Part shown: in pieces, positions 286-22,313 of the stretch
Position numbering within the stretch: position 1 is the first letter of the stretch
Layout of the letters: each line of letters begins with the position of its first letter
Assembly (NCBI RefSeq): GCF_018860705.1
Contig: NZ_JAHKQA010000048.1
Location: forward strand, 1-64,000
DNA length: 64,000 bases
Source of the DNA: Citreicella sp. C3M06
Lineage (GTDB): Bacteria > Pseudomonadota > Alphaproteobacteria > Rhodobacterales > Rhodobacteraceae
Direction: 5' to 3'
Notes under the pieces: generated by a model
Databases searched by the model: none
What the model was told of the DNA's origin: nothing
The model's input: only the letters and a program-made list of their open reading frames with translations
Position numbers and translations under genes: made by a program

Positions 286-816
286 ATGGCCGACAGCAAG
301 CAGAAGGTGATCGAACGCAACCGCGCACCGCGGGTCCAGATCGCCTATGACGTCGAACATTACGGATCGGAAACCACCATCGAATTGCCCTTTGTCATGG
401 GCGTGATGGCCGATCTTTCCGGCGCTTCGGAAACCCCGGAGGCGTCCAAGCCGATCCCCGACCGCAGCTTCGTGGAAACCGACGCGGGCAGGTTCGGCAA
501 GTTCATGGAGGCGCTCGCCCCGAGGGTAAAGGCCCGCGTGCCCAATACCTTGCCCGCCGTCGAGGGGGCGGAAAAGGACGAAGAACTCTTCGTCGATCTC
601 AGCTTCAAGAGCATGTCCGATTTCGCCCCCGACAAGATCGCCGCGCAGGTGCCAGCGCTCTCCGAGCTGCTGAAGATGCGCAGCCAGCTGGTCGAGTTGC
701 TGGGCTACATGGACGGCAAGGTCGACGCGGAAAAGCGCATTGCGCAGCTGCTGGGCAACGAGCCGCTGCTGGCGCAGGCCGCCGAGGCCGCGATGGCCGC
801 CGGCAAGGAGGATTGA
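286..816 (+). CDS. tssB: T6SS small sheath subunit TssB (VipA)
   Basis: The 176-residue product has the length and character of TssB. An early segment reading ELPFVMGVMADLSG is the classic TssB signature, and a C-terminal run of short helices follows (about residues 120-165, LLKMRSQLVELLGYMDGK). TssB pairs with TssC to form the contractile cytoplasmic sheath. The start is supported by an AGGAAAGGGAG-type ribosome binding site just upstream. The stop is 3 bases before tssC, so the two partners are tightly linked. Nothing is unusual. Confidence 0.95.
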   Translation: MADSKQKVIERNRAPRVQIAYDVEHYGSETTIELPFVMGVMADLSGASETPEASKPIPDRSFVETDAGRFGKFMEALAPRVKARVPNTLPAVEGAEKDEELFVDLSFKSMSDFAPDKIAAQVPALSELLKMRSQLVELLGYMDGKVDAEKRIAQLLGNEPLLAQAAEAAMAAGKED

Positions 817-819
817 TCC

Positions 820-2325
820 ATGGCAGAAGAACTCAAATCCGACACCGGCGCGGCCGAGGCCGAAGCGCTTGATCTGGGCGAATTCTCGGCGCTGCTGGAA
901 AAGGATTTCCGCGTCAAGGACGAGGCTTCCGACCGGCTCAAGGGTCTTGTCGCCAACCTTGCGCTGGCGGCGCAGGAAAAGGCCGGATCGGCGACGATTT
1001 CCGGCAATGCGGTCAAGTCGATCAAGTCTCTGATCGGCGGTATCGACCAAATCCTGACGGAGCAGATGAACGAGATCCTGCACGCCCCCGAGCTGCGCGA
1101 GATCGAAGGCACATGGCGCGGATTGCATTATCTGGTCAACAACACCGAGACCGATCAGAAGCTGAAGATCCGGGTGATGAACATCCGCAAGGACGATCTG
1201 GCCGATCATCTCGAGGATTACGAAGGCCAGATGTGGGACCAGTCGGCGGTCTTCAAGAAGATCTATTCCGACGAATATTCGATGTTTGGCGGCGAGCCGT
1301 TCGGCGCCATCATCGGGGCCTATGAATTCAGCCACAAGCCCAAGGACGTGAGCATGTTGCGCAACCTGTCCGGGATTTGCGCATCGGCCCATGCCCCCTT
1401 TATCGCCGCCGCCGCGCCGCAGCTCTACCGGATGGAAAGCTGGCAGGAACTGCCCAACCCGCAGGATCTGCAACAGGTGATGTCCTCGCCCGAATATGCC
1501 AGCTGGAATTCTCTGCGCGAGTCCGAGGATGCGCGCTATATCGGCCTGACCATGCCGCGGGTGCTGGGGCGGCTGCCGTACGGCGCCGAGACGGTGCCGG
1601 TGAAGGGTTTCGATTTCGAAGAGCAGATCGACGGTAAGCACGATCATTACGTTTGGATGAACGCGGCCTTTGCCATGGGCGTCAACATCAACCGCAGCCA
1701 CAAGATCAGCGGTTGGGGCACCCAGATCCGCGGCGTTGAATCGGGCGGCACGGTGATGAACCTGCCGGTACACACCTTCCCGACCGATGATGGCTCTGTG
1801 GCGATGAAATGCCCCACCGAGATCGCCATCGACGATCGCCGCGAGGCCGAGCTTGCCAAGCTGGGGATGATGCCGATCCTGCATCGCAAGAACACCGATC
1901 TTGCGGCTTTTATCGGGGCGCATTCGCTTCAGGATGACGAGACCCGCGCCGGCAAGCTGGTCGACCCGGACGCGCAGGCCAACGAGCGGCTGTCGGCCAA
2001 TCTTCCCTATCTTTTCCCCGTGTGCCGCTTTGCACATTACCTGAAGGCGATCGCGCGGGACAAGGTCGGCACGTTCAAGGAACGCGCCGACATGCAGGTT
2101 TGGCTTGGCGAGTGGATCAACCGCTATGTCCTCGCCAATCCGGCCATGGCTGATGAAAAGGCCAAGGCCAAACGGCCACTTGCCGCCGCAGAGGTGCAGG
2201 TGGACAGCGTCGAGGGACGCCCCGGCTATTACAACGCCCGGTTCTACCTTCGGCCGCATTACCAACTGGAAGGCATCAACGCGAGCCTGCGGCTCGTGTC
2301 CGAGCTGCCCTCTGTCAAATCATGA
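820..2325 (+). CDS. tssC: T6SS large sheath subunit TssC (VipB)
   Basis: The 501-residue product matches TssC in length and motifs: EIEGTWRGLHYLV near residue 100, the FGAIIGAYEF block, a central LGRLPYG and a C-terminal RPHYQLEGINASLRLVSELP ending. With TssB it builds the sheath whose contraction drives the Hcp tube outward. The gene starts 3 bases after tssB, with a GGAG site inside the tssB tail. Nothing suggests truncation. It is followed 25 bases later by hcp with its own ribosome binding site, which may allow higher hcp translation. Confidence 0.96.
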   Translation: MAEELKSDTGAAEAEALDLGEFSALLEKDFRVKDEASDRLKGLVANLALAAQEKAGSATISGNAVKSIKSLIGGIDQILTEQMNEILHAPELREIEGTWRGLHYLVNNTETDQKLKIRVMNIRKDDLADHLEDYEGQMWDQSAVFKKIYSDEYSMFGGEPFGAIIGAYEFSHKPKDVSMLRNLSGICASAHAPFIAAAAPQLYRMESWQELPNPQDLQQVMSSPEYASWNSLRESEDARYIGLTMPRVLGRLPYGAETVPVKGFDFEEQIDGKHDHYVWMNAAFAMGVNINRSHKISGWGTQIRGVESGGTVMNLPVHTFPTDDGSVAMKCPTEIAIDDRREAELAKLGMMPILHRKNTDLAAFIGAHSLQDDETRAGKLVDPDAQANERLSANLPYLFPVCRFAHYLKAIARDKVGTFKERADMQVWLGEWINRYVLANPAMADEKAKAKRPLAAAEVQVDSVEGRPGYYNARFYLRPHYQLEGINASLRLVSELPSVKS

Positions 2326-2350
2326 CTTTTGAAGACAATGGAGAGATAAA

Positions 2351-2860
2351 ATGGCATTTACCGGCTATCTGAAAATCCCCGATATCGACGGCGAAAGCCA
2401 GCGCGCCGATCACGAGGATGAAATCGACATCACCGACATCATGTGGTCGATCGAGCAGGCGGCCACCGCGCAGACCGGCCGTGGCCGCGCCCGTGCGCGC
2501 GCCGATGTCAGCTCGCTGGTCTGCAGAAAGGTCTATGATGCCTCCTCGCCCTATATCGCGCTGGCCGCGATGCAGGCGAAAAGCTTCAAGGATGTGATCG
2601 TGACCGTGCGCCGTGACAGCGGCGAAGCGCATCTTGATTACCTGACCATCACCATGACCAACACCATCATCTCGCACTACGAGATCGACGGTGTCGGGCG
2701 CATCACCGACTCTGAACGGGTGGAGCGCGAAGGTCAGGAGTTGCAGGAGCGGATCGGTTTCGCCTTCGAGAACATCAAGGTCAAGTACGTGGTGCAGGAA
2801 GAGGATCACTCTGCCGGCGACGAGCACGAGATCGAGTTCGACATCGCGGCAGGCGTGTGA
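2351..2860 (+). CDS. hcp: T6SS tube protein Hcp (TssD)
   Basis: This 169-residue protein has the Hcp beginning (MAFTGYLKIPDIDGES) and the closing beta-strand pattern of the Hcp1 family (KVKYVVQEEDHSAGDEHEIE). Hcp forms stacked hexameric rings inside the sheath and is secreted, often carrying small effectors. A GGAGAGA ribosome binding site sits 4-5 bases before the start. It lies inside the structural operon rather than in a separate hcp-vgrG island. No C-terminal effector extension is present. Confidence 0.95.
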   Translation: MAFTGYLKIPDIDGESQRADHEDEIDITDIMWSIEQAATAQTGRGRARARADVSSLVCRKVYDASSPYIALAAMQAKSFKDVIVTVRRDSGEAHLDYLTITMTNTIISHYEIDGVGRITDSERVEREGQELQERIGFAFENIKVKYVVQEEDHSAGDEHEIEFDIAAGV

Positions 2861-2884
2861 GCGGTCTGACCAGGGGACCGGTTC

Positions 2885-3607
2885 ATGTCTGACGATCGCC
2901 TGACACAGGCGGTATCCCGGCAGGATGCCGTTCAGCCGTCCCTCTGGGACAGGCTGGTCGATGACCTGCCGGGTCTTAGCGCCGAAGCGGCCGCGCTTGG
3001 CCGCGATCTTGCCCGGGCCATGGGCGCGCCCGAGGCCGCCGAGACGCTTATGGCCGCCGGGCCGCGCGGCATCGAGGCCCGCGACGATATCGCGCCCGAA
3101 ACCCGCCAGTTGGCCCATCGGCTGCTGGCCCTGCGCGCCCGCAAGCGCCGTCTCGAAGAGGCGGGCATCGTGGTGACCTCGGACATTCTGCGCGAGGCGG
3201 TGCGGCGCGACATTGAAATGCTGTTCAACACAGAGCGGATGGAGGCAGATTTCCTGTTGACCCCGCGCGAGGCGCTGGCCCATCAAAGCCCGCGCGACCT
3301 GCTCGCCGATTATCCCGAGGTGCGGCGCAGCGTGCTCAATTACGGGGTGCCGTCGTTTTCGGGGCGCAACGGCGCTGACATCGACGCCGACGCGCTGGCG
3401 CGCGAGCTGAAGCGGGTGCTCAACACCTTCGAGCCGCGCCTTGCGCCGGGCAGTGTCAAGGTGACGGTGTCGCGCTCGGACAAGGCCGGGCTGGTGATCG
3501 CGGTGGATGGCACGCTGTTGCTCTCGCCGGTCCCCGAGCGGCTGCGGCTGTCGACGTCGATCGATCTCGACAACGGCAACGCCCGAACCACGCTGGAGGA
3601 GCGCTAA
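2885..3607 (+). CDS. tssE: T6SS baseplate protein TssE (gp25-like)
   Basis: The 240-residue product has a short N-terminal SLWDRLVDDL motif and a C-terminal gp25/lysozyme-like fold region (about residues 105-235: AVRRDIEMLFNTER, DYPEVRRSVLNYGVPSFSG, then strands ending in the tail). TssE is a baseplate wedge component resembling phage T4 gp25. It is longer than the usual 130-180 residues because about 80 helical residues, rich in Ala and Arg, separate the opening motif from the gp25 domain. The last base of its TAA stop is the first base of the tssF start, so translation is probably coupled. Confidence 0.88.
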   Translation: MSDDRLTQAVSRQDAVQPSLWDRLVDDLPGLSAEAAALGRDLARAMGAPEAAETLMAAGPRGIEARDDIAPETRQLAHRLLALRARKRRLEEAGIVVTSDILREAVRRDIEMLFNTERMEADFLLTPREALAHQSPRDLLADYPEVRRSVLNYGVPSFSGRNGADIDADALARELKRVLNTFEPRLAPGSVKVTVSRSDKAGLVIAVDGTLLLSPVPERLRLSTSIDLDNGNARTTLEER

Positions 3608-6473: not shown

Positions 6474-7930
6474 AGCTGGTGCTGGAACACAGCCCGAGGC
6501 CGCAGGCGCGCACCGAGATGGTGTTCGAGGGCAATCGCCTGAGCATCGGGCGCAGCGAGGATTGCGACTGGCAGCTGGACGATCCTGAGATGTTCATCTC
6601 GCGCCGCCACCTGATCCTGTCCGAACAGGGCGGGCAGGTGATGGTGACCGATGCCTCCTCGGGCGGGCTCTATATCGACAACGCGGCAAACCCGCTGGGG
6701 CCGGGGAACTCCGTGCCTGTGGAGCCGGGGATGAAGCTGCGCCTCGGCGATTTCACCCTGCGCATCGAGGCCATGCCCGACACGCCGCGCCAGACCATCG
6801 CCCCGGCGGTGACCCCCGCCGCGCCGCCACGTCCGGGCGGCTTTGACTTCGGCGCGCGTGAGGCGGCGCCGCCCCCCCCCGAACGCCCCGCCACGCTGCC
6901 CGATCCCTTCGGGCTGAAAGACAGCGGGGCGGCGCTCAACTGGCAAAAGGAGCCGCCCGCGCCGCCGCGCCCGCTCGATCAGGGTGATCCGTTCGAGCTC
7001 GATCTTCAGGGCAGCCCCGGCGAGACCGCGCCGCGCGCCCGCAGTATGGAACGCACCGGGGGCGATGCGTTCTTTGGCAGCGCGCCCGAGCCTGCCGCTC
7101 CCGATCGGGCCACCCCCGATGACCCCCCGGCCAAGCCCGATCTGTTCGCCGGTCTCTCGGCCAGTTTCGAGCCAGAGCCCGCCCCCGAGGTCACACCGCC
7201 CGCGCCAGACCCGGAGGAACAGCCGATCCTGTCGGCGTCCTTTGGCTTTGGCGCGCCGCCAGAGACTGTGCCAGAGCCTGTGCCAGAGCCGCCCGCAGAG
7301 CCCGCACCAGAGCCGACACCAGCGCCGCCACCGGCCGCCAATCCCGTTGCGCCCCGCGCCGCCCCGTCCGAAAACGATCCCATCGAGGCGCTCTATCGCG
7401 GCCTCGGCGTGCAGGGCAGTGCCAGCCCCGAACAGCTTGAACAGATCGGCCGCTCGATGCGGGCGCTGACCGAAGGGCTGATGATCCTGCTGCGCCACCG
7501 CGCGCAGGAACGCGCGCGGGTGCGGGTGGCGCAAACCGTCATCGCCAGCCAGAACGTCAACCCGCTGAAATTCCTCGCCTCGACCGAAGAGGGGCTTGAA
7601 TCGCTGATGGCCCCGCGCGGGCGCGGCTATCTTGATCCAGATCCGGCGCTGGCCGAAGCCTTTCGCGATCTGCACGACCACCAGATGCGCACATGGGCGG
7701 CGATGCAGACCGCGCTGCGCCGGATGCTGGGCAAGTTCGATCCCGCCGAAATCGCCCGCGAGATGGAGGATGTCGGGCGGCTTGAAAGCCTGCTGGCGGG
7801 CGGGCGCAGCGCCAAGCTCTGGCAACTTTACGAGGAACGCTTTCGCGAGATCGCCCGCGCCGCCGAAGAGCAGTTCCTTGGCGAGGTCGGGGTGGATTTC
7901 CGCGATGCCTATGAGAACCGAAAGGAGTGA
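6470..7930 (+). CDS. tagH: T6SS-associated FHA-domain protein TagH (ImpI/Fha type)
   Basis: The 486-residue product starts with an FHA domain (residues about 1-95; GR followed by SRRHLIL gives the conserved GRS...SRRH phosphopeptide-binding residues). A long proline/alanine/glutamate-rich linker follows (about 110-305, with Pro-Glu repeats). The C-terminal domain (about 320-480) resembles the TagH/VasC family tail (ALTEGLMILLRHRAQERARV, then FREIARAAEEQFLGEVG). FHA domains bind phosphothreonine, so this is probably the docking partner of a Thr kinase/phosphatase switch. It overlaps tssG by 4 bases and has a GAGGAAAGG site. The PP2C phosphatase at 20685-21431 would be its partner. Confidence 0.9.
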   Translation: MKLVLEHSPRPQARTEMVFEGNRLSIGRSEDCDWQLDDPEMFISRRHLILSEQGGQVMVTDASSGGLYIDNAANPLGPGNSVPVEPGMKLRLGDFTLRIEAMPDTPRQTIAPAVTPAAPPRPGGFDFGAREAAPPPPERPATLPDPFGLKDSGAALNWQKEPPAPPRPLDQGDPFELDLQGSPGETAPRARSMERTGGDAFFGSAPEPAAPDRATPDDPPAKPDLFAGLSASFEPEPAPEVTPPAPDPEEQPILSASFGFGAPPETVPEPVPEPPAEPAPEPTPAPPPAANPVAPRAAPSENDPIEALYRGLGVQGSASPEQLEQIGRSMRALTEGLMILLRHRAQERARVRVAQTVIASQNVNPLKFLASTEEGLESLMAPRGRGYLDPDPALAEAFRDLHDHQMRTWAAMQTALRRMLGKFDPAEIAREMEDVGRLESLLAGGRSAKLWQLYEERFREIARAAEEQFLGEVGVDFRDAYENRKE

Positions 7931-7934
7931 CGTG

Positions 7935-8387
7935 ATGACCCATTCAAGACGCTTCATCCTTGCCGCGGGGGCCAGCGCGCTGGCGCTTGGCGCCTGCCAA
8001 GAGGCCGCCGCCCCGGTGCTGAGCCTGCGCGCCGATGCCAGCCCCGGCATGAACCCCGGCCCCGATGGCGCCGACCGGCCGGTCACGGTCACGGTGCTTC
8101 AGATGAGCGGGGCCTCGAATTTCGACAGCGCCGATGTCTTCGCGTTGCAAAATGCCTCGGCAGCGGTGGGGGCAGAACTGGTCAAGGCCGATCAGATCGT
8201 GTTGGCCCCCGGCGTCAGCGTATCGCGCGACATCGCCATCGCGCCCGGCACCACGGTGATCGGCGTGACGGCGGGCTTTCGCGACCCGGCAGGCAAGGTG
8301 CTGCGCCGCAAGGTGCCCGCGCCGGGGGCAGACAGCGGGCTGGTGATCTCGGTCGGGCCGGGCGGCATTTCGCTCGTGATGACCTGA
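7935..8387 (+). CDS. tssJ: T6SS outer-membrane lipoprotein TssJ
   Basis: The 150-residue product has a lipoprotein signal peptide with the lipobox LGAC (cysteine at about residue 21) and a beta-sandwich-like remainder, as in TssJ/SciN. TssJ anchors the trans-envelope TssJLM complex to the outer membrane and contacts the periplasmic part of TssM. The ATG is preferred over a GTG one codon upstream because AAAGGAG lies 7 bases before it. The position between tagH and tssK is usual for tssJ. TssJ sequences are poorly conserved, so the call rests on lipobox, size and position. Confidence 0.85.
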   Translation: MTHSRRFILAAGASALALGACQEAAAPVLSLRADASPGMNPGPDGADRPVTVTVLQMSGASNFDSADVFALQNASAAVGAELVKADQIVLAPGVSVSRDIAIAPGTTVIGVTAGFRDPAGKVLRRKVPAPGADSGLVISVGPGGISLVMT

Positions 8388-9740: not shown

Positions 9741-11069
9741 ATGACCAAGGACGATCCCTTTGGGCTGGAAAGCGACGCCGCCCGCACCCGCATCCGCCCG
9801 CGCCCGCAGCTGCGATCGGCGCAGCCTGCGCCGGATGCGCCGGTGCGGTTGCGCGGGGGGCGGGCGTCGGGGAACCCTCTGGTCAACGCCTATGCCGCCC
9901 TGCTGGGCTTTGCGCCCGAGCTGGAAAAGGCCACCGCCCCCGAAAGCCCCGACATGCTGCGCACGCGGCTGCACGAAAACCTGACCCACGCGCGCGACGC
10001 CGCAGTGACGGCGGGCGTCACGCTGACCCGCGCCGATCAGGGGGCGTGGTTCGTGGCGGCGCTGCTCGATGACATCGCGCTCAACACGCCATGGGGCGGG
10101 GCCAGCGGCTGGCCGCGCAACCCGCTGGTGGTGCAGATGTACGGCGATATCGACGCGGGCGAGCGGTTTTTTGCACTGGCCGACGGGCTGGCGCAATACC
10201 CCGAGCGTGACCCTGAACTGCTGGAGCTGGCCTTCCTGTGCCTGTCGCTTGGCTTTCGCGGCAAGCATCGGATCGAGGGCGCGGCGGGCGAGGCAAAGCT
10301 GTCGGCGCTGCGTGGCAAGATTGCCCGCATCCTGCGCGACCGCGATGCGCGCGATGCGCCGCTCTCGCCGCATTGGCGCGGGGTTGCGGCGGCGGACGAA
10401 GAGCGCCGATTCATCGTGCCGCTTTGGGCCATCGCGCTGATCGGCATCGCGCTGCTCACTGGGATCTACATGGCGCTGGGGCTGCGCCTGTCGGGGCGCA
10501 GCGAACAGCTGTTCTCGCTGGCGGGGTTGCTGCCGCCCTCCGAGCGGGCCGAGATCTTTCGCCCGGTGATCGAAACCACCGAAGTGCCGCAGTTCCGCGC
10601 CGATCCGGTGTTGCTGGAACTGCTGCCGCTGTTCGCGCAGGCCGCCCCCGCGGCCACCGGCAAGGCGCTGAGCGGGCGCGAGGATGTCAGCCTTGCCATC
10701 CTTGTGGTGCAGGGCACCGCGCCCGAATTGTTCCGCAGCGCCAAGGCCGACATCAACGCCGAATACACCGCGCTGGTCGGTTCGATCGCGCAGGTGATCC
10801 GCGACAACGCCGAGTTTATCGGCGCGGTCAAGGTGGTGGGCCATACTGACAGCGTGCCGGTGCAGACCTCCAACCCGTTCCGCTCCAATCAGGGCCTGTC
10901 CGAGGCCCGCGCCAGCACCATCGCCGATCTGCTGCGCGCGGGGGGCGTCGATGCCGCGCTGATCAGCTCTGAAGGGCGGGCGGCGGCAGAACCCATCGGT
11001 GACAATGCCACGCGGGAAGGGCGCGCCCGTAACCGGCGCGTCGAAATCATCCTGCAAAAGAAGGTCTAG
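9741..11069 (+). CDS. tssL: T6SS membrane protein TssL with DotU and OmpA domains
   Basis: The 442-residue protein has a cytoplasmic DotU/IcmH domain (about residues 45-215; WFVAALLDDIALNTPWG, YGDIDAGERFF, then LELAFLCLSLGFRGKHR). One membrane helix follows (about 222-242), then a C-terminal OmpA/MotB peptidoglycan-binding domain (about 345-440; VVGHTDSVPV and RARNRRVEIIL). It is therefore the 'extended' TssL that carries its own peptidoglycan anchor. TssL bridges TssK and TssM at the inner membrane. Its TAG stop lies 3 bases before the tssM ATG. Confidence 0.95.
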   Translation: MTKDDPFGLESDAARTRIRPRPQLRSAQPAPDAPVRLRGGRASGNPLVNAYAALLGFAPELEKATAPESPDMLRTRLHENLTHARDAAVTAGVTLTRADQGAWFVAALLDDIALNTPWGGASGWPRNPLVVQMYGDIDAGERFFALADGLAQYPERDPELLELAFLCLSLGFRGKHRIEGAAGEAKLSALRGKIARILRDRDARDAPLSPHWRGVAAADEERRFIVPLWAIALIGIALLTGIYMALGLRLSGRSEQLFSLAGLLPPSERAEIFRPVIETTEVPQFRADPVLLELLPLFAQAAPAATGKALSGREDVSLAILVVQGTAPELFRSAKADINAEYTALVGSIAQVIRDNAEFIGAVKVVGHTDSVPVQTSNPFRSNQGLSEARASTIADLLRAGGVDAALISSEGRAAAEPIGDNATREGRARNRRVEIILQKKV

Positions 11070-11072: not shown

Positions 11073-14000
11073 ATGACCGTTCTGCGCATCCTGTTTCGCA
11101 CCCTGTTGTCCCGCACGCTGTGGACCTTCATCGGCCTTGCGCTGCTGTGCGTGCTGATCTGGCTGTATGGCCCGCTGGTCAGCATCGGTGCGGCGCAACC
11201 GATGGCATCAGACCTGACGCGGGTGATCGTCATCGGGGTCATCGCGATCCTGTGGCTGGTCTCGCTGCTGCTGCGCCAGATCCGCGCCGCGCGCGCCAAC
11301 CGCGCCTTTGTCACCGATCTGGCCGCGCCGCCGCCCGCCGCCCCCGAGGACGAGAGCATCGCCGCCGTGAACGCCAAGTTTCAGGGCGTGCTCGACCAGA
11401 TGAAACGCAGCAAGCTGGGGCGCAAGAAGTTCCTGCGCGACATGCCGTGGTATGTGTTCATCGGCCCGCCCGGCACTGGCAAGACCACCGCGCTGCGCCA
11501 GTCGGGGCTGCATTTTCCCATCGACCTTGGCGATGATCTGAAGGGCATGGGCGGAACGCGCAACTGCGACTGGTTCTTCACCGAAGACGCGGTGCTGATC
11601 GACACCGCCGGGCGTTATGTGCAGCAGGCGTCGGACCCGCAGGTCGATGCCGCCGAATGGACAGGCTTTCTGCGCCTGCTGGTCAAACACCGGGGGCGGC
11701 GGGCGCTCAACGGGGTTATCCTGACGTTGTCGGTACAGGAACTGGCGGGCGACGATGCCTCGATCCGCGATCATGGCCGCGAGATCCGCAAGCGGCTGGC
11801 CGAGCTGCGCGAGGTGACGGGGCTGAAGCTGCCGGTCTATCTGATGATCACCAAGGCCGATCTGATCCCCGGTTTCGAGACGTTTTTCGCCGATCTGTCG
11901 ACCCAGCAGCGCGAACAGGTCTGGGGCGCCAGCCTTGGCACCACCGAGCGCATCGACGACACCGCCATCCTGCGCGAGATGCGCCTGTTGCAAGAGGCGC
12001 TCGAGGCGCGGCTGGGCGCGCGCATCGCCGATGATCTGCCGCTGGCCGAGCGGGCCGAGATATTCCGCTTTCCCGCCCAGCTTGAGGCGCTGATGCGTCC
12101 GCTGACCATCCTCACCGAGGCGGTGTTCGGCGACAGCCGCTACGAGGAAAGCCCGTGGTTGCGTGGGGTCTATTTCAGCTCTGCCACGCAGGAAGGCTCT
12201 CCCATCGACCGGCTGGTGGCGGCCACGGCGGCCTCGTTGGGGATGCGCGCGCCATGGGTCGAGCCGCGCAAACATGGCGCCACCCGCAGCTATTTCCTGC
12301 GCGGCCTGCTGAGCGATCTGGTGTTCCCCGAGGCCGGGCTGGGCCGCTTCGATCCGCGCGCCGAGGATCGTCGGCGGTGGGCGTGGCGCGGCGCGCTGGC
12401 GGGCACGGCGCTGGTGGTGGCGTTGCTTGGCGCGGTGTTCCTGTACAGCTTCCTGCGCTACGACGGCGCGCTGGCCGATCAGGAACGCCAGCTGGCAACG
12501 CTGTCGGCGCGGCTGGCCAATGTCGCGGCGCGGCAGGCACCGACCGATCCGCTTGACCTCGATCTGGCGCTGGATGCCGCGACCCAGACCCTGCAAGCTG
12601 CGACGGTGCTGCGGCCCGCGCCGCTGACGGCGCTAGGCCCCAGCGCCGCGCCGGAACTGGCCCGCGCCGGACAGATCGCTTATGAGCGCATCCTGCGCAA
12701 CGTGCTGGAACCGCGCATGGTTGCCACGCTTGAAGCGACCATGTGGCGCCATGCCCGCGATCCCGAATTCCTGCTGGGCGGGCTCAAGGCCTATCAGATG
12801 CTGACCGGGCAGGCGCCCTATGATGGCGCGTTCCTGTCGATCTGGTGGCAAAGCGTGCTGCCAAGCTTTGCCCCCATCGATATTTTCCCCACCGAGGAGA
12901 GCATCGACCATCAGCTTGCCGCGCTGGCCCGCATGGCGACCGAGGAAACCAAGATCGCGCCCGATCCGCAGCTTGTCGGGGTGGCGCTGGAAAGCATCTG
13001 TACCATTCCGCTGGCGGTGCGCGCCTATAACGCGTTGATGAGCGATCCTGATGTCGCCACCCTTCCGGGCTTTGTACCCGCCGAGGTGGCGGGACCCAAC
13101 GGCAACCGGGTGCTGACGCGATTGTCGGAAACCTCGCTGCGGGTCGGGCTGCCGGGGGCGTTTACCTTTGATGGCTTTCACAACGTCATCCTGTCGCTGG
13201 TGCCCGAGGTCGCCGCGCAAGCCCAGCTTGACCGCGCGGTGTTCGCCGGCGGGTGCAACGAAAGCGCGCAGGCCTCGGTCGATACGCTCGAGGACGATGT
13301 GCTGAAGCTGTATTACGACGATTTCATCGCGCAATGGGATGGGCTGCTGCGCGACATCCGGCTGACGCCGATCGGCGATCTGGATCAGGCGCGGCTGAAC
13401 CTCAAGGATCTGTCCTCGGCCGATTCCGCGCTCAAGCGCCTGCTCGAAGCGGTGGTGCGCGAGACCCATCTGGCCCGCCCCGAGGATCCCGGCATCGAAG
13501 ACAACGCCGCCGCGCAGAAGGCCGGGCAGAAGGCGCTGCTCAAGCTTGGCAAGATCGGCAAGCTGGCCAAGACCGGGCTGAAGATCGCCGCCGCCCAGCC
13601 CGGCGGCGCCGAACCCGCGCCGCCCGGCACGCCGGTATCGGATCATTTCGCCCCGATCCGCGCCACCGTCGAAGAGGTCGACGGTCAGCCGCCGCTGCTG
13701 AACGATGCTATCACCGCGCTGACAGCGCTGTCGAATGAGCTGCAAACTGTGGCGGCCAGCCCCGATCCACGCGGGGCGCTGCTGGCGCGGGGTGGCTTGC
13801 CCTCGCTGACCGGGGCCATCGCCAACGAGGCAGGTGCGCTGCCCGATCCCATCGACGACTGGATCGCGGGCATCGCGGGCGATGCCATCGCGGTGACGCG
13901 CGATGCGGTGGTGGCGCAGCTCAATGCGCGCTGGCGGGCGGATGTGCTGCCGTTTTGCACCTCGGCCACGGCGGGGCGCTATCCGTTCGATCAGGCCTCG

Positions 14001-14603
14001 GCCATCGACGTCAACACGTTGGATTTCGCCCGGCTGTTCGGCAAGGACGGGCTGATCGACAGCTATATCAACGACCATCTTCTGGCCTATGTCGACACCT
14101 CGGTGCGGCCATGGCGCTGGCGGGCGGATTTCGGGTTGAACGACGCGCTGCTGGCGCCCTTTGCCAAGGCGCGATCGATCCGCGATGCGTTGTTCCCCGG
14201 CGGCGCGGGGCCGATCATGGCCTTCAACCTTGAACCGCGCGATCTGTCGCCCAACGCCTCGCGCGTGACGCTGAATGTCGATGGGCAAGTGCTGAGCTAT
14301 TTCAACGCCGCCGCCCGCCCGGTGCCGATGACATGGCCGGGGCCGGACCAGACCAACATGATCACCCTCAGCTTTGCGCCCGTCGATGGCACCGGCGAGG
14401 TCATCACCTCGCAAACCGGGTCATGGGCGTTCTTGCGGCTGATCCGGGGCGGCGCGCTTCAGGCCACGGCCTTGCCCGAGGTGTTCGGGCTGCGCCTTGG
14501 CGCGCGCGGCTTCAGCGCCAGTTTCAACCTGCGCGCCAATTCGGTCGAGAACCCGTTCGATCTTCGCATGTTTTCGGGTTTTTCCTGCCCGCGCGGGTTC
14601 TGA
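11073..14603 (+). CDS. tssM: T6SS inner-membrane protein TssM (IcmF)
   Basis: The 1176-residue protein has two N-terminal membrane helices (about 18-36 and 50-68), then a cytoplasmic NTPase domain with Walker A GPPGTGKTT at about 131-139 and LIDTAGRY as the Walker B/G3-like motif. A third membrane helix lies near residue 440 and a large periplasmic region ends in AGRYPFD...PWRWR and a beta-rich tail. This is the complete IcmF architecture. ATG is chosen over GTG one codon earlier because AAGAAGG lies about 8 bases upstream. Its periplasmic tail resembles the C-terminus of the minus-strand protein at 17440-19824. Confidence 0.96.
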   Translation: MTVLRILFRTLLSRTLWTFIGLALLCVLIWLYGPLVSIGAAQPMASDLTRVIVIGVIAILWLVSLLLRQIRAARANRAFVTDLAAPPPAAPEDESIAAVNAKFQGVLDQMKRSKLGRKKFLRDMPWYVFIGPPGTGKTTALRQSGLHFPIDLGDDLKGMGGTRNCDWFFTEDAVLIDTAGRYVQQASDPQVDAAEWTGFLRLLVKHRGRRALNGVILTLSVQELAGDDASIRDHGREIRKRLAELREVTGLKLPVYLMITKADLIPGFETFFADLSTQQREQVWGASLGTTERIDDTAILREMRLLQEALEARLGARIADDLPLAERAEIFRFPAQLEALMRPLTILTEAVFGDSRYEESPWLRGVYFSSATQEGSPIDRLVAATAASLGMRAPWVEPRKHGATRSYFLRGLLSDLVFPEAGLGRFDPRAEDRRRWAWRGALAGTALVVALLGAVFLYSFLRYDGALADQERQLATLSARLANVAARQAPTDPLDLDLALDAATQTLQAATVLRPAPLTALGPSAAPELARAGQIAYERILRNVLEPRMVATLEATMWRHARDPEFLLGGLKAYQMLTGQAPYDGAFLSIWWQSVLPSFAPIDIFPTEESIDHQLAALARMATEETKIAPDPQLVGVALESICTIPLAVRAYNALMSDPDVATLPGFVPAEVAGPNGNRVLTRLSETSLRVGLPGAFTFDGFHNVILSLVPEVAAQAQLDRAVFAGGCNESAQASVDTLEDDVLKLYYDDFIAQWDGLLRDIRLTPIGDLDQARLNLKDLSSADSALKRLLEAVVRETHLARPEDPGIEDNAAAQKAGQKALLKLGKIGKLAKTGLKIAAAQPGGAEPAPPGTPVSDHFAPIRATVEEVDGQPPLLNDAITALTALSNELQTVAASPDPRGALLARGGLPSLTGAIANEAGALPDPIDDWIAGIAGDAIAVTRDAVVAQLNARWRADVLPFCTSATAGRYPFDQASAIDVNTLDFARLFGKDGLIDSYINDHLLAYVDTSVRPWRWRADFGLNDALLAPFAKARSIRDALFPGGAGPIMAFNLEPRDLSPNASRVTLNVDGQVLSYFNAAARPVPMTWPGPDQTNMITLSFAPVDGTGEVITSQTGSWAFLRLIRGGALQATALPEVFGLRLGARGFSASFNLRANSVENPFDLRMFSGFSCPRGF

Positions 14604-15053
14604 ATGGCGGGTGTCTTTGGCAAGCTGCCAACGCAGGGGGATTTCGTGGCGCGGGGCCTGCCGCCGGGGGTGCAGGGCGCGCTTGATGACTGGGTGACGC
14701 GACATTTGCTGCCCATCGACGCCGAGCGCTGGCCCCAAAGCGGAATCCTTGCGGCGCTGCCAGAGGCGCTGATCCTTGCGGTGCCAAGCTGCGATGCGGT
14801 GGGGCGGGCGTTTGCGCTTTGCGCGGTGACGCATTCGCAGGTGGATCAGCCCGGCGCGGATGGCTGGGCGGCGATGACGCTGCCATATCTCGATGCCGGG
14901 CTCAGCGGCGCGCTGGATCTGGCCGCGCTGGCGCAGGCGCTGGCGCCGCTGACGCCGCCGCGCAGCGCCGCGCCCTTGCGCGCGCCGCTGGTCTGGGCGC
15001 CGGGCAACGCGCCCGCCAGCCCCGAGGCGCTGGCCCGGCTCAGTTCATCTTGA
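14604..15053 (+). CDS. tagF: T6SS regulatory protein TagF (short form)
   Basis: The 149-residue product opens with the TagF/ImpM signature (GVFGKLPTQGDFVARGLP, then DDWVTRHL) and contains a weakened 'PSCDAVGRAFALCAV' block, which in the family reads PSvDrvGRyfPL. TagF is a cytoplasmic repressor that in studied systems acts on the FHA protein independently of phosphorylation. It starts directly after the tssM stop. At under 150 residues it is shorter than many TagF proteins, and its last 14 bases overlap the convergent vgrG end. A natural short form or slight C-terminal loss are both possible. Confidence 0.82.
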   Translation: MAGVFGKLPTQGDFVARGLPPGVQGALDDWVTRHLLPIDAERWPQSGILAALPEALILAVPSCDAVGRAFALCAVTHSQVDQPGADGWAAMTLPYLDAGLSGALDLAALAQALAPLTPPRSAAPLRAPLVWAPGNAPASPEALARLSSS

Positions 15054-17343
15054 CCTTGGCGCCCTTGATGGTGACATCGCTGGAGGCATTGGCATCGATC
15101 TTGCCCGAGCCTTTGAGCGTGATGTCCTTGCCCTCGATGGAGATGGTGCCGTCTTTCTTCATCACGATCTTGGCCTTGCCGCATTTCAGCGTCAGGCTGT
15201 CTTCGGCGGTGATGGTGAAATCCTTGCCGATCTCCATGCCGCCGGATTTGCCGATGCTCATGGTGAAATTCTCGCCCACCGACACCGAACTGTCCTTGCC
15301 CACCGACAGGCTGCGGTTCTCGCCAACCGAAACGCTTTGATCCTTGCCCACCGTCAGCGCCTGATCCTGCCCCACCGAGGTGCTGTCGGAATTGCCGATG
15401 TCATGGCTTTGATCGACGCCCACCGCGACCGAGCGCGTCAGGCCGATGGTGTTGGCCTGCGCCATGCCCACGCTGCGGGTTTCATTCATTGCCACCACGT
15501 CGATGCGGTTGGCCTTGACCGTGACGGTCTGGTTGGCGCCGACCGTCTGGGTGTGGTTCGCGCCGATGGTTTCGGTCGAATTGACCCCGATGGCGATGGT
15601 TTCGTTCACCCCCACGGTGAGGGCGCGGTTGTTGCCCACGGTTTCGGTGTCGTCATGGTCGATGTTGACCGTGCGGTCGACCTTGACATGGGTGGTCTTG
15701 CAATTGTCGACCGTCTCATCGCGGTTGTGGCCGACCCATTGGGTGGCGTCATGCACCACGTCTTCGGACCAGTCATTGCCGATGTGGCGGGTCTCGTTGT
15801 TCTTGACCAGCTCGTCATGGTCTTTTTCGGCTTGAAAATAGACCAGCTCGCTGCCCTTCATGTCTTCGAACATCAGCTCGTTCCAGCCACCGCCACCTTT
15901 GGAGCTGTTGGATTTCCAGCCCGATTTCGTTGCCTCGGCGGGCAGCTCGTAGGGTGGCATCTGTTCGGCATTGTAAACGCGGCCAGTGATGATCGGCTGG
16001 TCGGGATCGCCCTCGAGGAAATCGACGATCACCTCCTGCCCGATGCGGGGGATCTGGATGAAGCCCCAGCCGGACCCGGCCCATGCTGCGCTGACCCGCA
16101 CCCAGCACGAGGCATTTTCATCGCGCTGGCCTTCTCGGTCCCAGTGGAACTGCACCTTCACGCGGCTGTAGGCGTCGGTGTAGATCTCTTCGCCGGCAGG
16201 CCCGACCACCTGCGCCGTTTGCGGGCCGCGCATCACCGGGCGCGGCGCGCGCAGCCTCGGGCGCCACTGGCTGTGTTCGGGCACCAGCCGCCAGCTGGCG
16301 ACAAAGCCGGTCTCGTCGCGATCCATGCGCCCCGAGGCATATTGATCGTCCCACAGCGCATAGTCGGCGCGCAGCAGCACATAAAGCCCGTTTTCGGGCA
16401 TCCTCGGGTGATCGAACAGGGTGATGGTATGCCCCGCCGCCGGAAGGCTGGCCGAGCTTTCTGCAAGCGCCAGATGGCTGTCGCGCTGGCCTTCCTGCCA
16501 GCGCAGGTCGGTAAGCGCATCGCCGCGCCCGGTCTTCAGGTAATGGCCGGGGTAATCATAGCGCTCGAACCCGTCGTTCGGGTGCCCTGCGCGGGCATCG
16601 TGGCGCGCCATCAGATCCGCCGAGGGCTTTTCGAAATCATAGTCGGTCTGGGTCATGATGCCGGGCCGCACCGAGGTCACGCCCTGCCATTTGGTGATCA
16701 CGCCTTCGCCGCGCAGCTGCGCCGCCGCATTCGGTTCAAATCGAATATCCGAAACATCCGAATGCGGTTCCAGCGCGCCCAGATCGTCACACAGGATCAG
16801 CTTGTGCGCCAGATCGTCGAATTCGTGGAAATAGAAGATGCCCTCGTGTTCCAGCAGCCGCTGAATGAAATTCAGCGTGGTTTCGCCATATTGCACGCAA
16901 TAGACCCGCGGCTCGTAGCTGCCGCTCAGGCGCAGCTCGTAATTGGTGATGCCATGCTGGTCGAGCAGCGCGCTGACGATGTCCGGCACCGACATTTCCT
17001 GAAAGATCCGGTTGTCGCGGGTCTTGTCCAGCAACGCCAGCGCCGGGCGCAGCACCAGCGTATAGCGGAACTGCTCGTCCTCGTCGTTGCCGTCAAAGCT
17101 CAGGCTGTCGCAGATGCCGCTGAAATAGCGGATCTGCCCGTCATCTTCTTCGTTGGTGAGCGCCGTGACGCAGCATTCCCGGCCAAGAATGTCGGGCGCA
17201 AGCACAAGATCGTCCTGACACAGCGCGCTGACGCGGAATTCGAAACAGCGGCTGATCTCGTCAAATCCGCTGAGCGCGGCGAATTTCAGGCTGTCTTCGG
17301 GGAGGGCAATCGGCGTTTCAAGCGTGGCAATTCGGGCGGGCAT
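15040..17343 (-). CDS. vgrG: T6SS spike protein VgrG (TssI)
   Basis: The 767-residue product has the gp27/gp44-like N-terminal domains (about 1-370; FEFRVSALCQDD, RLLEHEGIFYFHEF). The gp5 OB-fold follows (about 385-470; VKVQFHWDREGQRDENASCW, AGSGWGFIQIPRIGQEVIV, FLEGDPDQPIITG). A long C-terminal array of about 8-residue VGxNxTxT-type repeats comes next (about 540-700), forming the needle beta-helix, and a lysine-rich end finishes it. It has no extra effector domain after the needle. It is convergent with tagF, with a 14-base tail overlap. GAGAAAGGGACAG precedes the start. No PAAR or adaptor gene is adjacent. Confidence 0.95.
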   Translation of the reverse strand: MPARIATLETPIALPEDSLKFAALSGFDEISRCFEFRVSALCQDDLVLAPDILGRECCVTALTNEEDDGQIRYFSGICDSLSFDGNDEDEQFRYTLVLRPALALLDKTRDNRIFQEMSVPDIVSALLDQHGITNYELRLSGSYEPRVYCVQYGETTLNFIQRLLEHEGIFYFHEFDDLAHKLILCDDLGALEPHSDVSDIRFEPNAAAQLRGEGVITKWQGVTSVRPGIMTQTDYDFEKPSADLMARHDARAGHPNDGFERYDYPGHYLKTGRGDALTDLRWQEGQRDSHLALAESSASLPAAGHTITLFDHPRMPENGLYVLLRADYALWDDQYASGRMDRDETGFVASWRLVPEHSQWRPRLRAPRPVMRGPQTAQVVGPAGEEIYTDAYSRVKVQFHWDREGQRDENASCWVRVSAAWAGSGWGFIQIPRIGQEVIVDFLEGDPDQPIITGRVYNAEQMPPYELPAEATKSGWKSNSSKGGGGWNELMFEDMKGSELVYFQAEKDHDELVKNNETRHIGNDWSEDVVHDATQWVGHNRDETVDNCKTTHVKVDRTVNIDHDDTETVGNNRALTVGVNETIAIGVNSTETIGANHTQTVGANQTVTVKANRIDVVAMNETRSVGMAQANTIGLTRSVAVGVDQSHDIGNSDSTSVGQDQALTVGKDQSVSVGENRSLSVGKDSSVSVGENFTMSIGKSGGMEIGKDFTITAEDSLTLKCGKAKIVMKKDGTISIEGKDITLKGSGKIDANASSDVTIKGAKVKMN

Positions 17344-17439: not shown

Positions 17440-19824
17440 TTACAGCTTTGGCGGGCAGACTAGGCCGCTTAGCACCGGGCGGACCGAGACAGGGTTCAGC
17501 GCCTCGGCAAAGCCCAGCTCCAGAAACACCCGCCCTTGCGCATTGCGCAGATCGAGCAGGGCGCGCGCGCCATCGTCGCGCAGCCGCAGCCGCGTGCCGT
17601 CGATGAGCCGCAGCAGGCCCCACGGGCCGGGCTCTGTCAGCCGCGCCGCATCGGCGTTGTCGCGAAAGGAAATTTCGATACCGGCGGCGGGCTCGGGGCC
17701 GGGCCAGCGCAGGGTTGCGGGCGCTCCGCTGGCGCGCACCGGGGCGGCAACGGTGCCGATGGCGACAAGGGTCTGGCCGCGCTCTGCCAGCGCCGCGAAT
17801 GTGATCGCATGATCCAGCGCGCCGCCCGCAAACAGGCCCTGCGACACCAGCATCGCCGTTTCCAGAAACGCCGCACTGTCGTTTTCAAGCCCGGCAAACC
17901 GTGCTTCTGGTTTCCAGCGCCACGGGCTTTGCGAGCTGTCGAGCAGCGGCTGCGCGCTGCCTTGCACGAAGCGCGGCACAAGCCCATCCGGCCCCAGCAG
18001 CGCGGCCAGCGCGGCAGGGTCGGCATCGGGGCCGTCGGCAAAGGGATAGCGCCCGGCCAGCGCGGCGCGGCAGGCGGCAAACATCTGCGTCTGCCAGCCG
18101 CGCGACAGCGGATTGCCCGAGGTATCGGCGGCCTCGGGCTGGGCAGCCCCGGCAAGCACGTCTTCGGCGATCTGCACCACGATGCGCGGCGCGCTTTTCA
18201 GCGCGGCGATGCTGCGCGCCTTGTCCTGAAACGTCATCAGCCGCCGGGTGGCGCGTCTGGCGTCGATGTCCACCGCGCCAAGCGCCACGTTCAGCCCCGA
18301 GAACAGCCGCGAGAGTTCGGCCATGCGCCCCTGTTCGACATATTGGATCATCGGGCCCAACTGGCGGGCCAGCAGCAGTTGCTGAGCATGGCTGCGGCTG
18401 CGATCAAGCCCGCCCGCCTGCAGCCAGACCTGCGAGAGCAGCCGACTGAGCGGATTGTCCGCCAGCGACAGGTGCCCCGAAACGATGATCGCGGTTTCGC
18501 GGTCGGCAAAGGGGCGCACCCGCAGATCGGCGAGCCAGCCGGTCCAGCGCTCCAGCGTCTCGCGGTTCAGCCGGTCGGCCAGCAGGTCGGGCGAGCGGTT
18601 TTCGGCGGCGAGCTGGACGCCAGTGATGGGGCGGGCCTGCGCGCGGGCGGTCTGCACCGCCAGCCCGACGCCGGTGCGCAGCGCGGCCTCCCAGCCGCCT
18701 GCGGTGAACAGCCCCGGCATCGGCGTTGCCAGATCCATCCCCGAGCGGCGCAGCAGCACATCGCCCAGCCCCGGCACCGCTCGCGTCGGCACCCAGCCGG
18801 GCAGGGCGCGCATGTCATCGCTGCGCAGCAATTCCAGCCACGCGCGGTCCGGTTCGGGCACCTCGGCGGCGAAGGTGCGTGCCTGATCCATCACCACCGT
18901 ATCGGTGGGCACGACATTGGCGGGCCCCTGCAACGGCGCAGCATGGCGCGCCAGCCCGCCCAGCCCGTGATCTTCGAGCCAGCCCGCCAGATAGCCCGGC
19001 TGCCAATCGGCCTCGCCGGTCAGTACCGCCCATGCCCGCAGCGTATCATACAGCGCCAGCCCGTCGCCGGTGCTTGCCAGCCGCTGTTCCAGCGTCTTGG
19101 CCAGGGCGGGGGGAAGCTGGCGGCGGGCGGCCTCGGCATAGCTGGCCTCGGCCAAGGTTTCGCTGTCGCCGGGCAGGCGGATCAGCCGGCGCAGCGGCGC
19201 ATGGCGCGCGGTCTCGGCCACCCGGTCTGCGGCGGCGCGCAGGGCATCAAGGCGCGAGGTCAGCTCGGCACCCTCCTGCGGGCGGTCAAGCCCGATCAAC
19301 AGCGCCTCTTGCCGGAAATCCGCTGCAATCTGGCGGTGATAGCGCCATTCCAGCGCCCCGGCATAGCCTGCCAGCCCCAGCCCCAGCAGCAGCGCAAAAC
19401 CCAGCGCGTACCAGCCCCAGCCGCTGACCCTGCGCCGATGGCCATGGCGCAGCCCGTCAAGGCGTGCCTGCACATCCCCCAGCAGCGCGTCGAGCTCGGC
19501 CAGCCCTTCGGCCTGCGCGGTGCGGCGAAAATCGGCCAGCCGGGCGGGCGGCATGTCGCGCCCTTCGAACAGCGTGCGGGCGGCGATCACCGACCATGTC
19601 GACAGCTTGAGCCCCGGCATCGCCCGCACCCGCTGATCGAGCAGCATCGCCAGCGCGTAGCGCGCGGGCTTGATCGACACCGGGGGGGCACCAGTCTGCG
19701 CCGCGGCGGTTTCGAACTGCGCCAGCATCCGGGCGGCCTCGGCGGCGATGGCGCGCGCGCCGTCCTTGGGGCTGAGGCTGTCAATGAATCCCAGCACCGG
19801 CTCGGCAGCGCGAACAAGGCTCAT
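17440..19824 (-). CDS. TssM-like T6SS membrane protein lacking the GTPase domain
   Basis: The 794-residue protein has an N-terminal cytoplasmic part (about 1-134), one membrane helix (about 137-157) and a large periplasmic part. Its C-terminus is clearly related to TssM: AGRYPFADG and SQSPWRWK near residues 590-650, and a beta-rich end (PGPWGLLRLIDG to SGLVCPPKL) matching TssM's tail. No Walker A motif is present. The N-terminal part (RYALAMLLDQRVRAMPG, then LFEGRDMP) faintly resembles the DotU core LLDDIALNTPWG, so it may be a TssL/TssM-like hybrid. It starts by ATGA overlap with the peptidase gene and probably forms an accessory envelope component. The function is unproven. Confidence 0.7.
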   Translation of the reverse strand: MSLVRAAEPVLGFIDSLSPKDGARAIAAEAARMLAQFETAAAQTGAPPVSIKPARYALAMLLDQRVRAMPGLKLSTWSVIAARTLFEGRDMPPARLADFRRTAQAEGLAELDALLGDVQARLDGLRHGHRRRVSGWGWYALGFALLLGLGLAGYAGALEWRYHRQIAADFRQEALLIGLDRPQEGAELTSRLDALRAAADRVAETARHAPLRRLIRLPGDSETLAEASYAEAARRQLPPALAKTLEQRLASTGDGLALYDTLRAWAVLTGEADWQPGYLAGWLEDHGLGGLARHAAPLQGPANVVPTDTVVMDQARTFAAEVPEPDRAWLELLRSDDMRALPGWVPTRAVPGLGDVLLRRSGMDLATPMPGLFTAGGWEAALRTGVGLAVQTARAQARPITGVQLAAENRSPDLLADRLNRETLERWTGWLADLRVRPFADRETAIIVSGHLSLADNPLSRLLSQVWLQAGGLDRSRSHAQQLLLARQLGPMIQYVEQGRMAELSRLFSGLNVALGAVDIDARRATRRLMTFQDKARSIAALKSAPRIVVQIAEDVLAGAAQPEAADTSGNPLSRGWQTQMFAACRAALAGRYPFADGPDADPAALAALLGPDGLVPRFVQGSAQPLLDSSQSPWRWKPEARFAGLENDSAAFLETAMLVSQGLFAGGALDHAITFAALAERGQTLVAIGTVAAPVRASGAPATLRWPGPEPAAGIEISFRDNADAARLTEPGPWGLLRLIDGTRLRLRDDGARALLDLRNAQGRVFLELGFAEALNPVSVRPVLSGLVCPPKL

Positions 19825-20684: not shown

Positions 20685-21431
20685 TCAGCCCTCCACGCCG
20701 ACCACGATGACCGAGACATTGTCGGGCGCGCCCGCCTCCAGCGCGGCGCGCAGCAGGTCGGTGCAGGCCTCACGCGGATCGCCCGCAGCGCCGATCAGAT
20801 CGGCGATGCGGCTGTCGGGCAGGCAGGTGGTCAGCCCGTCGCTGCACAACAGCAGCCGGTCGCCCGGCACCAGCGGCGCCGAGACATGGTCGATTTCTAG
20901 CGCCGGGTCCGCGCCCACGGCGCGGGTCACCACATGGCGCTGCGGGTGGCGTTCGCGGTTCTCGTCGCTCAGCAAGCCTTCGTCGATCATCTCTTGCACC
21001 ACGGTGTGATCGCGGCTCAGCAGCCGCAGATGCCCGGCCCGCAGCAGGTAGGCGCGGCAATCCCCGGCCCATGCCAGATGGGCGACGCAGGACTGGATCA
21101 GCGCCACCACCGCCGTTGCGCCGATCTGGCCAAGGTTCTGCTGCGCGGCCAGATCAAGGATCGCCGCGTTCGCCGCCAGCAGCGCCGCGCGCAGTGTCGG
21201 CGCTGCTGGCGCATGATCGTCAAGCTTTGCCACATGGTCGATGACGATGTCCGAAGCCATCGCGCCATGCCCTTGCCCGCCCATGCCATCGGCCACCGCC
21301 CAGAGCAGCCCGGCGGGATCGGTCAGGATGCTGTCTTCGTTCTCGTCGCGCACCCGCCCGACATGGGTCAACCCGGCACCTTGCAGGCGCGGCGCCATGG
21401 GGGCAGGGTTGCGGGTCGTTGGGGGGATCAT
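20685..21431 (-). CDS. pppA: PP2C-type Ser/Thr protein phosphatase (T6SS PppA/Stp type)
   Basis: The product contains the PP2C metal and catalytic motifs: GRVRDENEDSIL near residue 25, VADGMGGQGHG, SRDHTVVQEM, LCSDGLTTCL and DNVSVIVV at the end. In T6SS loci such phosphatases reverse phosphorylation of the FHA protein. The start used (248 residues) has GGAG 8 bases upstream. A longer frame beginning at 21542 (285 residues, AAGG nearby) is possible but would run through the divergent promoter region. It lies 3 bases before the M15 gene. No kinase partner is in the window. Confidence 0.88.
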   Translation of the reverse strand: MIPPTTRNPAPMAPRLQGAGLTHVGRVRDENEDSILTDPAGLLWAVADGMGGQGHGAMASDIVIDHVAKLDDHAPAAPTLRAALLAANAAILDLAAQQNLGQIGATAVVALIQSCVAHLAWAGDCRAYLLRAGHLRLLSRDHTVVQEMIDEGLLSDENRERHPQRHVVTRAVGADPALEIDHVSAPLVPGDRLLLCSDGLTTCLPDSRIADLIGAAGDPREACTDLLRAALEAGAPDNVSVIVVGVEG

Positions 21432-21593
21432 GCGGGGCGCTCCGCCGCCCGGGGCCGGCATCTGCCGAATGATTGCGGCCTCTGGTCGGGTATACCTGAC
21501 ATGGGCGGCCCTCGAAAAAAGCTGATCTGAAACGCTGTCCATGCTACCTTCTTTCGTGCATCCCACCAACTTTTTTCGCTGAAAGGGCTTCTG

Positions 21594-22313
21594 ATGTTTT
21601 CCCGAGCCGTTCGTGTTTCCGTTTTCGCGTTGATCGCCATGGGTTTGCCCGCCCTTGCCCCGGCACAATCCGTGGATGAGTTGTCGGTGGAAGAGCTGAA
21701 GCGACTCTTTCAGGCGCAAAAGCAGGTGTTCAAAGAGGCCGAGGCCGGCAATCTTGGCGCAACGCGCGGCCTGCGTCTGGTGACGGTCGACGATGTGCAG
21801 GCCGAAAGCGCCGCGCCGCAGCTGGCCACCACCGCGCCGCAGCTGAGCGCGCCGTCCCCGGACACGGGCGTGTCGATCGCCGCCACCGCCGCGCCGGGCG
21901 CGCGCCCGGTCGATCCCAACAAGCCGCTGCTGGCGGCGGCCACCGACGCCCCCGTGGTGTTCGGAGAACTGGCCCCCGAATTGCAGGTCAACCTGCACAT
22001 CGCCTTTGGCTTTGACAGCGCCGCCATCGCCGACGATCAGGCCCCCAAGCTCGCCGCCATGTGTCAGGCCCTGTCCGAGGCGGATCTGTCGATGGTGCGC
22101 ATCGTTGGGCACACCGACAGTTCGGGCACCGACGCTTATAATCAGCGGCTGTCGGTGCTGCGCGCCAAGGAGGTCGCCCGCCATCTGATCGAGGAATGCG
22201 GCATTCCCGCCACCAAGCTGCAAACCGTTGGCATGGGCGAGAAATTCCCCTTCAACAAGGCCAACCCTCGCGCCGACGAGAACCGCCGGGTGGAGTTTCA
22301 GGCGCTCAGCTGA
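21594..22313 (+). CDS. Secreted OmpA-domain protein next to the T6SS locus
   Basis: The 239-residue product has a cleavable signal peptide (about 1-25, ending APAQS) with no lipobox cysteine. A variable Ala/Pro-rich middle follows, then a C-terminal OmpA-like peptidoglycan-binding domain (about 130-239; IAFGFDSAAI, IVGHTDSSGTDAYNQRLS, RADENRRVEF). It would be a soluble periplasmic, wall-bound protein. It is divergent from the phosphatase and abuts the end of the convergent transporter gene with no spacer. It may be an extra wall anchor for the T6SS, but generic OmpA-family proteins are common, so the link is positional only. Confidence 0.75.
   Translation: MFSRAVRVSVFALIAMGLPALAPAQSVDELSVEELKRLFQAQKQVFKEAEAGNLGATRGLRLVTVDDVQAESAAPQLATTAPQLSAPSPDTGVSIAATAAPGARPVDPNKPLLAAATDAPVVFGELAPELQVNLHIAFGFDSAAIADDQAPKLAAMCQALSEADLSMVRIVGHTDSSGTDAYNQRLSVLRAKEVARHLIEECGIPATKLQTVGMGEKFPFNKANPRADENRRVEFQALS

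Follow-up and report, generated by a model that had tools for sequence, protein, structure and literature searches.

In a T6SS cluster of Citreicella sp. C3M06, within the 64,000-nt stretch of DNA analysed here (the window), a single gene codes for a hybrid protein. Its sequence shows a cytoplasmic module that resembles DotU/TssL but is shortened, then one membrane helix, then a periplasmic part of TssM type. There is good support for this anatomy and for the fixed place that the gene has in a single T6SS lineage. The mechanism we infer: on balance, we consider it somewhat probable that, in one alphaproteobacterial T6SS lineage, the protein serves the trans-envelope complex as a fixed extra subunit that has no NTPase and docks an M15 peptidase at the channel. 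The T6SS is a bacterial molecular spear gun whose membrane complex is usually described as consisting of TssJ, TssL and TssM, to which helpers that bind or cut the cell wall may be added; the lineage found here in Rhodobacterales and Rhizobium/Sinorhizobium retains an additional protein of TssL-like and TssM-like parts. If the hybrid is a working subunit, it would show which halves of TssL and TssM act without the NTPase, offer a natural experiment on the purpose of the NTPase in TssM, and be a candidate for what connects the channel to the wall-opening enzyme.

The first-pass annotation had placed the gene at the coordinates that we retain (Table 1), the strand being minus, and had proposed a TssL/TssM-type hybrid without a GTPase domain, encoded within a T6SS; Pfam, profile comparisons and the predicted structure all support this proposal. 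As it had also stated, no Walker A motif was retrieved by pattern search in the window hybrid, and Pfam gave no match to the TssM NTPase domain PF14331; an isolated Walker A pattern match occurs in one (L123) of 65 hybrids. Hydropathy confirmed one membrane helix as against three in the window TssM. Fifty-one of the 65 hybrids show a single hydropathy segment, the other 14 having one or two further weak, near-threshold segments elsewhere. The window hybrid was aligned with 16 full-length relatives and also with 63 from named genomes. The structure predicted from an alignment of 64 sequences was rated confident (mean pLDDT 87.7, pTM 0.65); in it, six short helices are followed by a long membrane helix, after which come a long helical stretch and a beta sandwich.

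Table 1. Features of the hybrid gene and of its neighbours in the window.
Feature	Position	Strand	Evidence or remark
Hybrid gene	17440..19824	minus	ATG at 19824, stop 17440-17442, 794 aa
DotU/TssL-like cytoplasmic module, shortened	19444..19818	minus	residues 3-127; Pfam DotU 3-78, profile comparison 3-120
Membrane helix	19351..19407	minus	residues 140-158, hydropathy; model helix 136-177
IcmF-related periplasmic helical region of TssM	18424..19254	minus	residues 191-467, PF06761, E 2.5e-32
IcmF helical domain	17878..18111	minus	residues 572-649, PF21070, E 1.1e-4, 22.8 bits, slightly below cut-off 24.1
C-terminal C2-like beta domain	17512..17721	minus	residues 702-771, PF06744 (IcmF_C), E 3e-10
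TssJ lipoprotein, start approximate	7935..8387	plus	PF12790, E 1.7e-21, scanned as 7905-8387
Canonical TssL (DotU plus OmpA)	9741..11069	plus	Pfam DotU 2e-48, OmpA 3.1e-15
Canonical TssM	11073..14603	plus	three membrane helices, Walker A GPPGTGKT, TIGR03348 1129.9 bits
VgrG, next gene downstream, not constant	15040..17343	minus	Pfam, locus comparison
M15 peptidase, N-terminal membrane helix	19821..20681	minus	PF13539, E 1.2e-11
PP2C phosphatase, gene start approximate	20685..21500	minus	PF00481 on 20685-21530; conserved cassette
Divergent OmpA-family protein	21594..22313	plus	PF00691; conserved cassette

The similarity of the hybrid to TssM is far past chance level. By profile comparison, residues 134–794 align with residues 437–1184 of TssM (numbering of the relative at locus L105), from the third helix to the last residue, with an E value of 4.6e-53. 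The first-pass annotation had noticed a common C-terminal third, which we also find, but the region shared with TssM is really the whole periplasmic one; likewise, the common signature that it had quoted, AGRYPF...PWRWK, is present as such in the hybrid, but the window TssM has PWRWR at that place. The periplasmic part of the hybrid is about 75 residues shorter than that of TssM (661 vs 737), and the NCBIfam TssM model (TIGR03348) scores it at 181.5 bits, below the cut-off of 388.15. Two cysteines, 585 and 790 in hybrid numbering, are common to 19/19 hybrids and 33/33 TssM in the alignment. The periplasmic parts of TssM build the pillar of the complex, and the C2-like region of the hybrid, whose model has beta strands between residues 672 and 771, corresponds to the region of E. 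coli TssM that was reportedly crystallised with TssJ. A PDB sequence search with the window protein as sole query found neither TssM nor DotU; searched with a profile of 17 hybrids, the PDB returned the E. coli TssM C-terminal structures 4y7l/4y7m at E 2e-10, and DotU at E 0.07.

Similarity of the N-terminal part to DotU is weaker than that to TssM, but it is real and beyond chance. The Pfam DotU model (PF09850) matched at 28.2 bits (cut-off 27), over profile positions 2–80 of 205 only, while the NCBIfam model (TIGR03349) gave 22.8 bits, below its cut-off of 89.95. Comparison of the profile of residues 3–120 with that of TssL residues 57–179 scored 45.8; the highest of 200 column shuffles reached 22.9, and the other controls gave 12.4 with the reversed profile, 17.5 against TssM and 13.7 against M15. 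In the reverse direction, the hybrid profile recognised TssL in 14 of 15 hybrid-free regions holding TssM (E 6e-10 to 4e-6), TssL being cut in the fifteenth. The best PDB match for a profile of 48 N-terminal parts was a DotU chain, at an E value of only 0.0084. In the module, six helices are predicted (residues 3–15, 23–43, 48–67, 74–84, 93–105 and 109–127), to be set against the two three-helix bundles of the DotU fold. The DotU-like pattern proposed earlier for this end (LLDQRV...PG...LFEGRDMP) is present and is joined by profile similarity, but what it marks is only a shortened copy. Across relatives, Pfam detected the DotU part in 14/17 hybrids at E values up to 0.01 and, at up to 0.1, in 8/10 further hybrids, the two in which Pfam did not find it coming from Paracoccus denitrificans and versutus. 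Its presence, by Pfam, in five proteins of the Rhizobium/Sinorhizobium type makes it probable that the DotU part is ancestral and was partly lost. It also diverges faster, with a mean distance of 0.61 vs 0.51 for the whole hybrid.

Distribution was surveyed in samples of the order (390 genomes), the class and the phylum, two candidates being scored per genome. The full-length hybrid was found in 17 genomes of the order sample; besides that of the window, there are 16 at 44–68% identity. TssM occurs in 111 of the 390, and its identity to the window TssM falls into two groups, 59–100% (17 genomes) and at most 38% (94 genomes). The 17 genomes with a close TssM are exactly those with the hybrid, and no hybrid was found, at two scored candidates per genome, in the 94 with a distant one; a survey of whether T6SS loci keep both proteins, as the first-pass annotation had suggested, therefore gives 17/17 for order genomes with a close TssM. 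When all ORFs of 100 aa or longer in 16 regions from 15 hybrid-free genomes were searched with the hybrid profile, no diverged hybrid was retrieved; TssM (15 regions) and TssL (14 regions) were the only matches. The phylum sample contained the full-length hybrid in 2/398 genomes, the window's own and another of the same class (G987), and no independent hybrid outside Alphaproteobacteria was seen among these 398. In G987 the M15, PP2C and OmpA genes stand beside the hybrid and TssM is 58% identical to the window's, the same value as for the TssM of a Rhizobium plasmid bearing the hybrid. The window's own was the only hybrid among the 385 genomes of the class sample, which therefore missed the Rhizobium kind. 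Some further candidates were discarded: a short TssM frame from another class (L219) is a TssM in two frames, and three long frames hinting at a TssL-TssM fusion (L216, L217, L218) match TssM and none of them TssL.

A scan of named genomes with peptide patterns of close relatives, overlapping the order sample, yielded 72 loci. The hybrid is intact in 63 of them, cut by a contig end in three and in two frames in two; one locus is chimeric and three are TssM genes. The last three (L152-L154) score as TssM and were rejected as hybrids, while the chimeric-looking one (L151, Paraglaciecola MAG, 1-3402), in which a hybrid fragment is in frame with about 1000 residues of unrelated protein, was set aside, so that hybrid loci number 68. 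According to record titles, the hosts are mostly Rhodobacterales (Salipiger, Paracoccus, Sulfitobacter, Ruegeria, Rhodovulum and others) and Rhizobium/Sinorhizobium, with Ensifer, a "Rhizobiales bacterium" and MAGs named to higher rank only. In two loci (L138 and L141) the hybrid gene is split over two reading frames. These two, and the fast divergence of the N-terminal part, are what could be expected of a functionless decaying duplicate or of an assembly artefact. We disfavour that explanation as highly improbable, because the named genomes hold 63 intact full-length frames, 71 columns are invariant across 64 sequences, the gene order of the window recurs in 16 further clusters (one cut), and the samples show the opposite of a gene lost in many members of the lineage.

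The cluster surrounding the hybrid reads, along the plus strand, tssB, tssC, hcp, tssE, tssF, tssG, fha, tssJ, tssK, tssL, tssM and tagF, followed by vgrG, the hybrid, the M15 peptidase and PP2C genes (minus) and then the OmpA gene (plus). Genes were assigned by Pfam/NCBIfam, except tssF and tssG, which were assigned by position and annotated relatives. The contig begins just before tssB, at the start of the window, so that tssA and tssH (ATPase) lie outside the view; tssH is next to the OmpA end of the hybrid cassette in Rhizobium sophoriradicis and about 9 kb past the cassette in Paracoccus zhejiangensis. TagF (14604-15053) is short (149 aa) and covers positions 1–98 of the 135 of the TagF profile only; the end of its gene overlaps that of the opposite-strand vgrG. 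The window has tssJ, tssL and tssM, and so have 15 of 16 further hybrid clusters examined, the contig of the sixteenth (L047) starting just upstream of tssL, with tssJ outside the view. Since these three genes lie in the same cluster, the hybrid is an addition, and the earlier idea of a replacement for part of the TssJLM core is not supported.

The immediate neighbours are not equally constant. The M15 gene, whose stop overlaps the hybrid start by 4 bp in the window, lies directly upstream of the hybrid in all 65 loci (among the 68) where that side is covered, with a spacing of -25 to +34 nt in 63/63 loci (start codons hand-chosen). VgrG is encoded directly downstream in 54/68 loci, a position which would suit an adaptor for the adjoining VgrG or its cargo; this function is disfavoured as very unlikely, for no match to the window VgrG was found within 700 nt downstream in the other 14 (Rhizobium, Sinorhizobium, Ensifer and one record titled Rhizobiales bacterium), where M15, PP2C and OmpA still adjoin.

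Of 82 relatives of the M15 protein, some from hybrid-free clusters, 78 have the metal-site pattern and 81 an N-terminal membrane helix. In the 16 hybrid-free regions, where TssM is 32–35% identical to the window's, M15 was found in 13, PP2C in 14 and OmpA in 9; the peptidase is thus not dependent on the hybrid everywhere. M15 and PP2C also accompany, without the hybrid, a second, distant TssM lineage of the same order. In Acinetobacter, TagX (pfam13539) binds TssM and is required for the complex (PMC5061870, PMC10564176). The hybrid might on this precedent (PMC10564176) do nothing but recruit the M15 peptidase, being a membrane scaffold in loose contact with the core and with no place in the pillars, as its constant and tightly spaced M15 neighbour, next to a variable VgrG, would allow. 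This appears unlikely to us: a mere recruiter would hardly need the periplasmic part of TssM down to the last residues, nor the cysteine pair shared with TssM by 19/19 hybrids, and the M15 protein has a membrane helix of its own and occurs hybrid-free in the other lineage.

A part in regulation would be another possibility. A TssM without its NTPase might insert into the complex and block it until its own release, possibly in connection with the PP2C phosphatase encoded two genes upstream. The missing NTPase part and the membership of PP2C in the same cassette are in line with it, as is the control of the T6SS by phosphorylation that has reportedly been described in Agrobacterium. Nevertheless, PP2C is also present in 14/16 hybrid-free regions and we saw no sign of inhibition, so that a regulator is quite unlikely.

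The reading that we favour, an extra subunit docking the peptidase, would work as follows. The periplasmic part of the hybrid would join the TssM/TssJ core and its DotU-like part would occupy the TssL/baseplate layer, thus bringing the membrane-bound M15 peptidase to the spot where the cell wall must open for the channel. That the hybrid may position the peptidase there is suggested because M15 is its constant neighbour and because TagX, of the same Pfam domain, binds TssM in Acinetobacter. A more specific arrangement can be drawn from the E. coli structures, which have two TssM places per fivefold unit. In a heteromeric complex, TssM with its NTPase could take one place and the hybrid the other, the DotU module replacing a separate TssL and the periplasmic part holding the peptidase in the ring; we regard this version as rather unlikely.

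Compared with known components, the hybrid resembles TssM (IcmF, TIGR03348) in the third membrane helix, in the periplasmic part with its helical and C2-like C-terminal domains and in the cysteine pair, but lacks the first two helices and the NTPase domain (PF14331). With TssL (DotU, PF09850 / TIGR03349) it shares a cytoplasmic helical module ahead of a membrane helix; however, the module is cut to about 127 residues and, instead of the OmpA part, a TssM-type periplasmic part follows. PdpB of Francisella is thought to substitute for TssM, whereas the hybrid comes on top of the canonical TssM. The C-terminal region of PdpB is IcmF-like (PMC2660368), a feature that it shares with the hybrid. The non-canonical complex of Acinetobacter (TsmK, TslA and TagX with TssL and TssM), as far as described in the available sections of PMC10564176, likewise has lineage-specific extra membrane subunits and includes a peptidase whose Pfam domain is also that of the window M15; it is, however, without TssJ, while the hybrid clusters have tssJ, tssL and tssM, and its extra subunits are not described there as TssL- or TssM-like, whereas the hybrid is built of such parts. 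The T6SS of R. etli Mim1, a Rhizobium system that has been studied, is assigned to another group, group 5 (PMC10215855). In open-licence literature, including the available sections of PMC2660368, PMC5813230, PMC5061870, PMC10564176 and PMC10215855, no description of a DotU-IcmF hybrid was found.

Public records do contain the protein. Among the 30 of 47 matches listed, 14 of the 15 annotated records name it "ImcF-related family protein" and one a hypothetical conserved protein. Records of Paracoccus, Sulfitobacter, Rhodobacter and Rhizobium bearing the former name are of the same protein; none attaches a function, and the name refers to one domain only. The first-pass annotation would have been contradicted by an already named, common T6SS accessory family, but we found only this generic name and no described family.

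A tree was built from the periplasmic parts of 19 of the 65 hybrids and of 33 TssM. All 19 hybrids group on a single branch and the 18 TssM from hybrid-bearing clusters on another (SH-aLRT of 100 for each); long branches meet in this tree, which does not fix the root of the hybrids. Conserved positions shared by the hybrids with their own-lineage TssM alone number 13, those shared with the other lineage alone 9 at the 70% level, and 7 and 2 respectively at the 85% level; many of these positions also occur in the two outgroup TssM, so that either TssM lineage may be the parent. Across 18 genomes, hybrid and TssM distances correlate with r = 0.93 (0/5000 permutations as high), a value that would also follow from mere co-inheritance in one cluster. 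Order sample, locus survey and this correlation show that T6SS clusters encode the hybrid and that the two are inherited together, the hybrid evolving faster than TssM (mean distance 0.51 vs 0.33). The hybrid may have originated from a copied tssL-tssM pair that lost everything between the DotU domain and the third helix of TssM; a single deletion could yield it, because tssL and tssM adjoin and their products run through the membrane in the same direction where the junction helix lies. A second cysteine pair (643, 728), absent from 19/19 hybrids and from 15/15 other TssM, is present in 18/18 TssM of the hybrid lineage.
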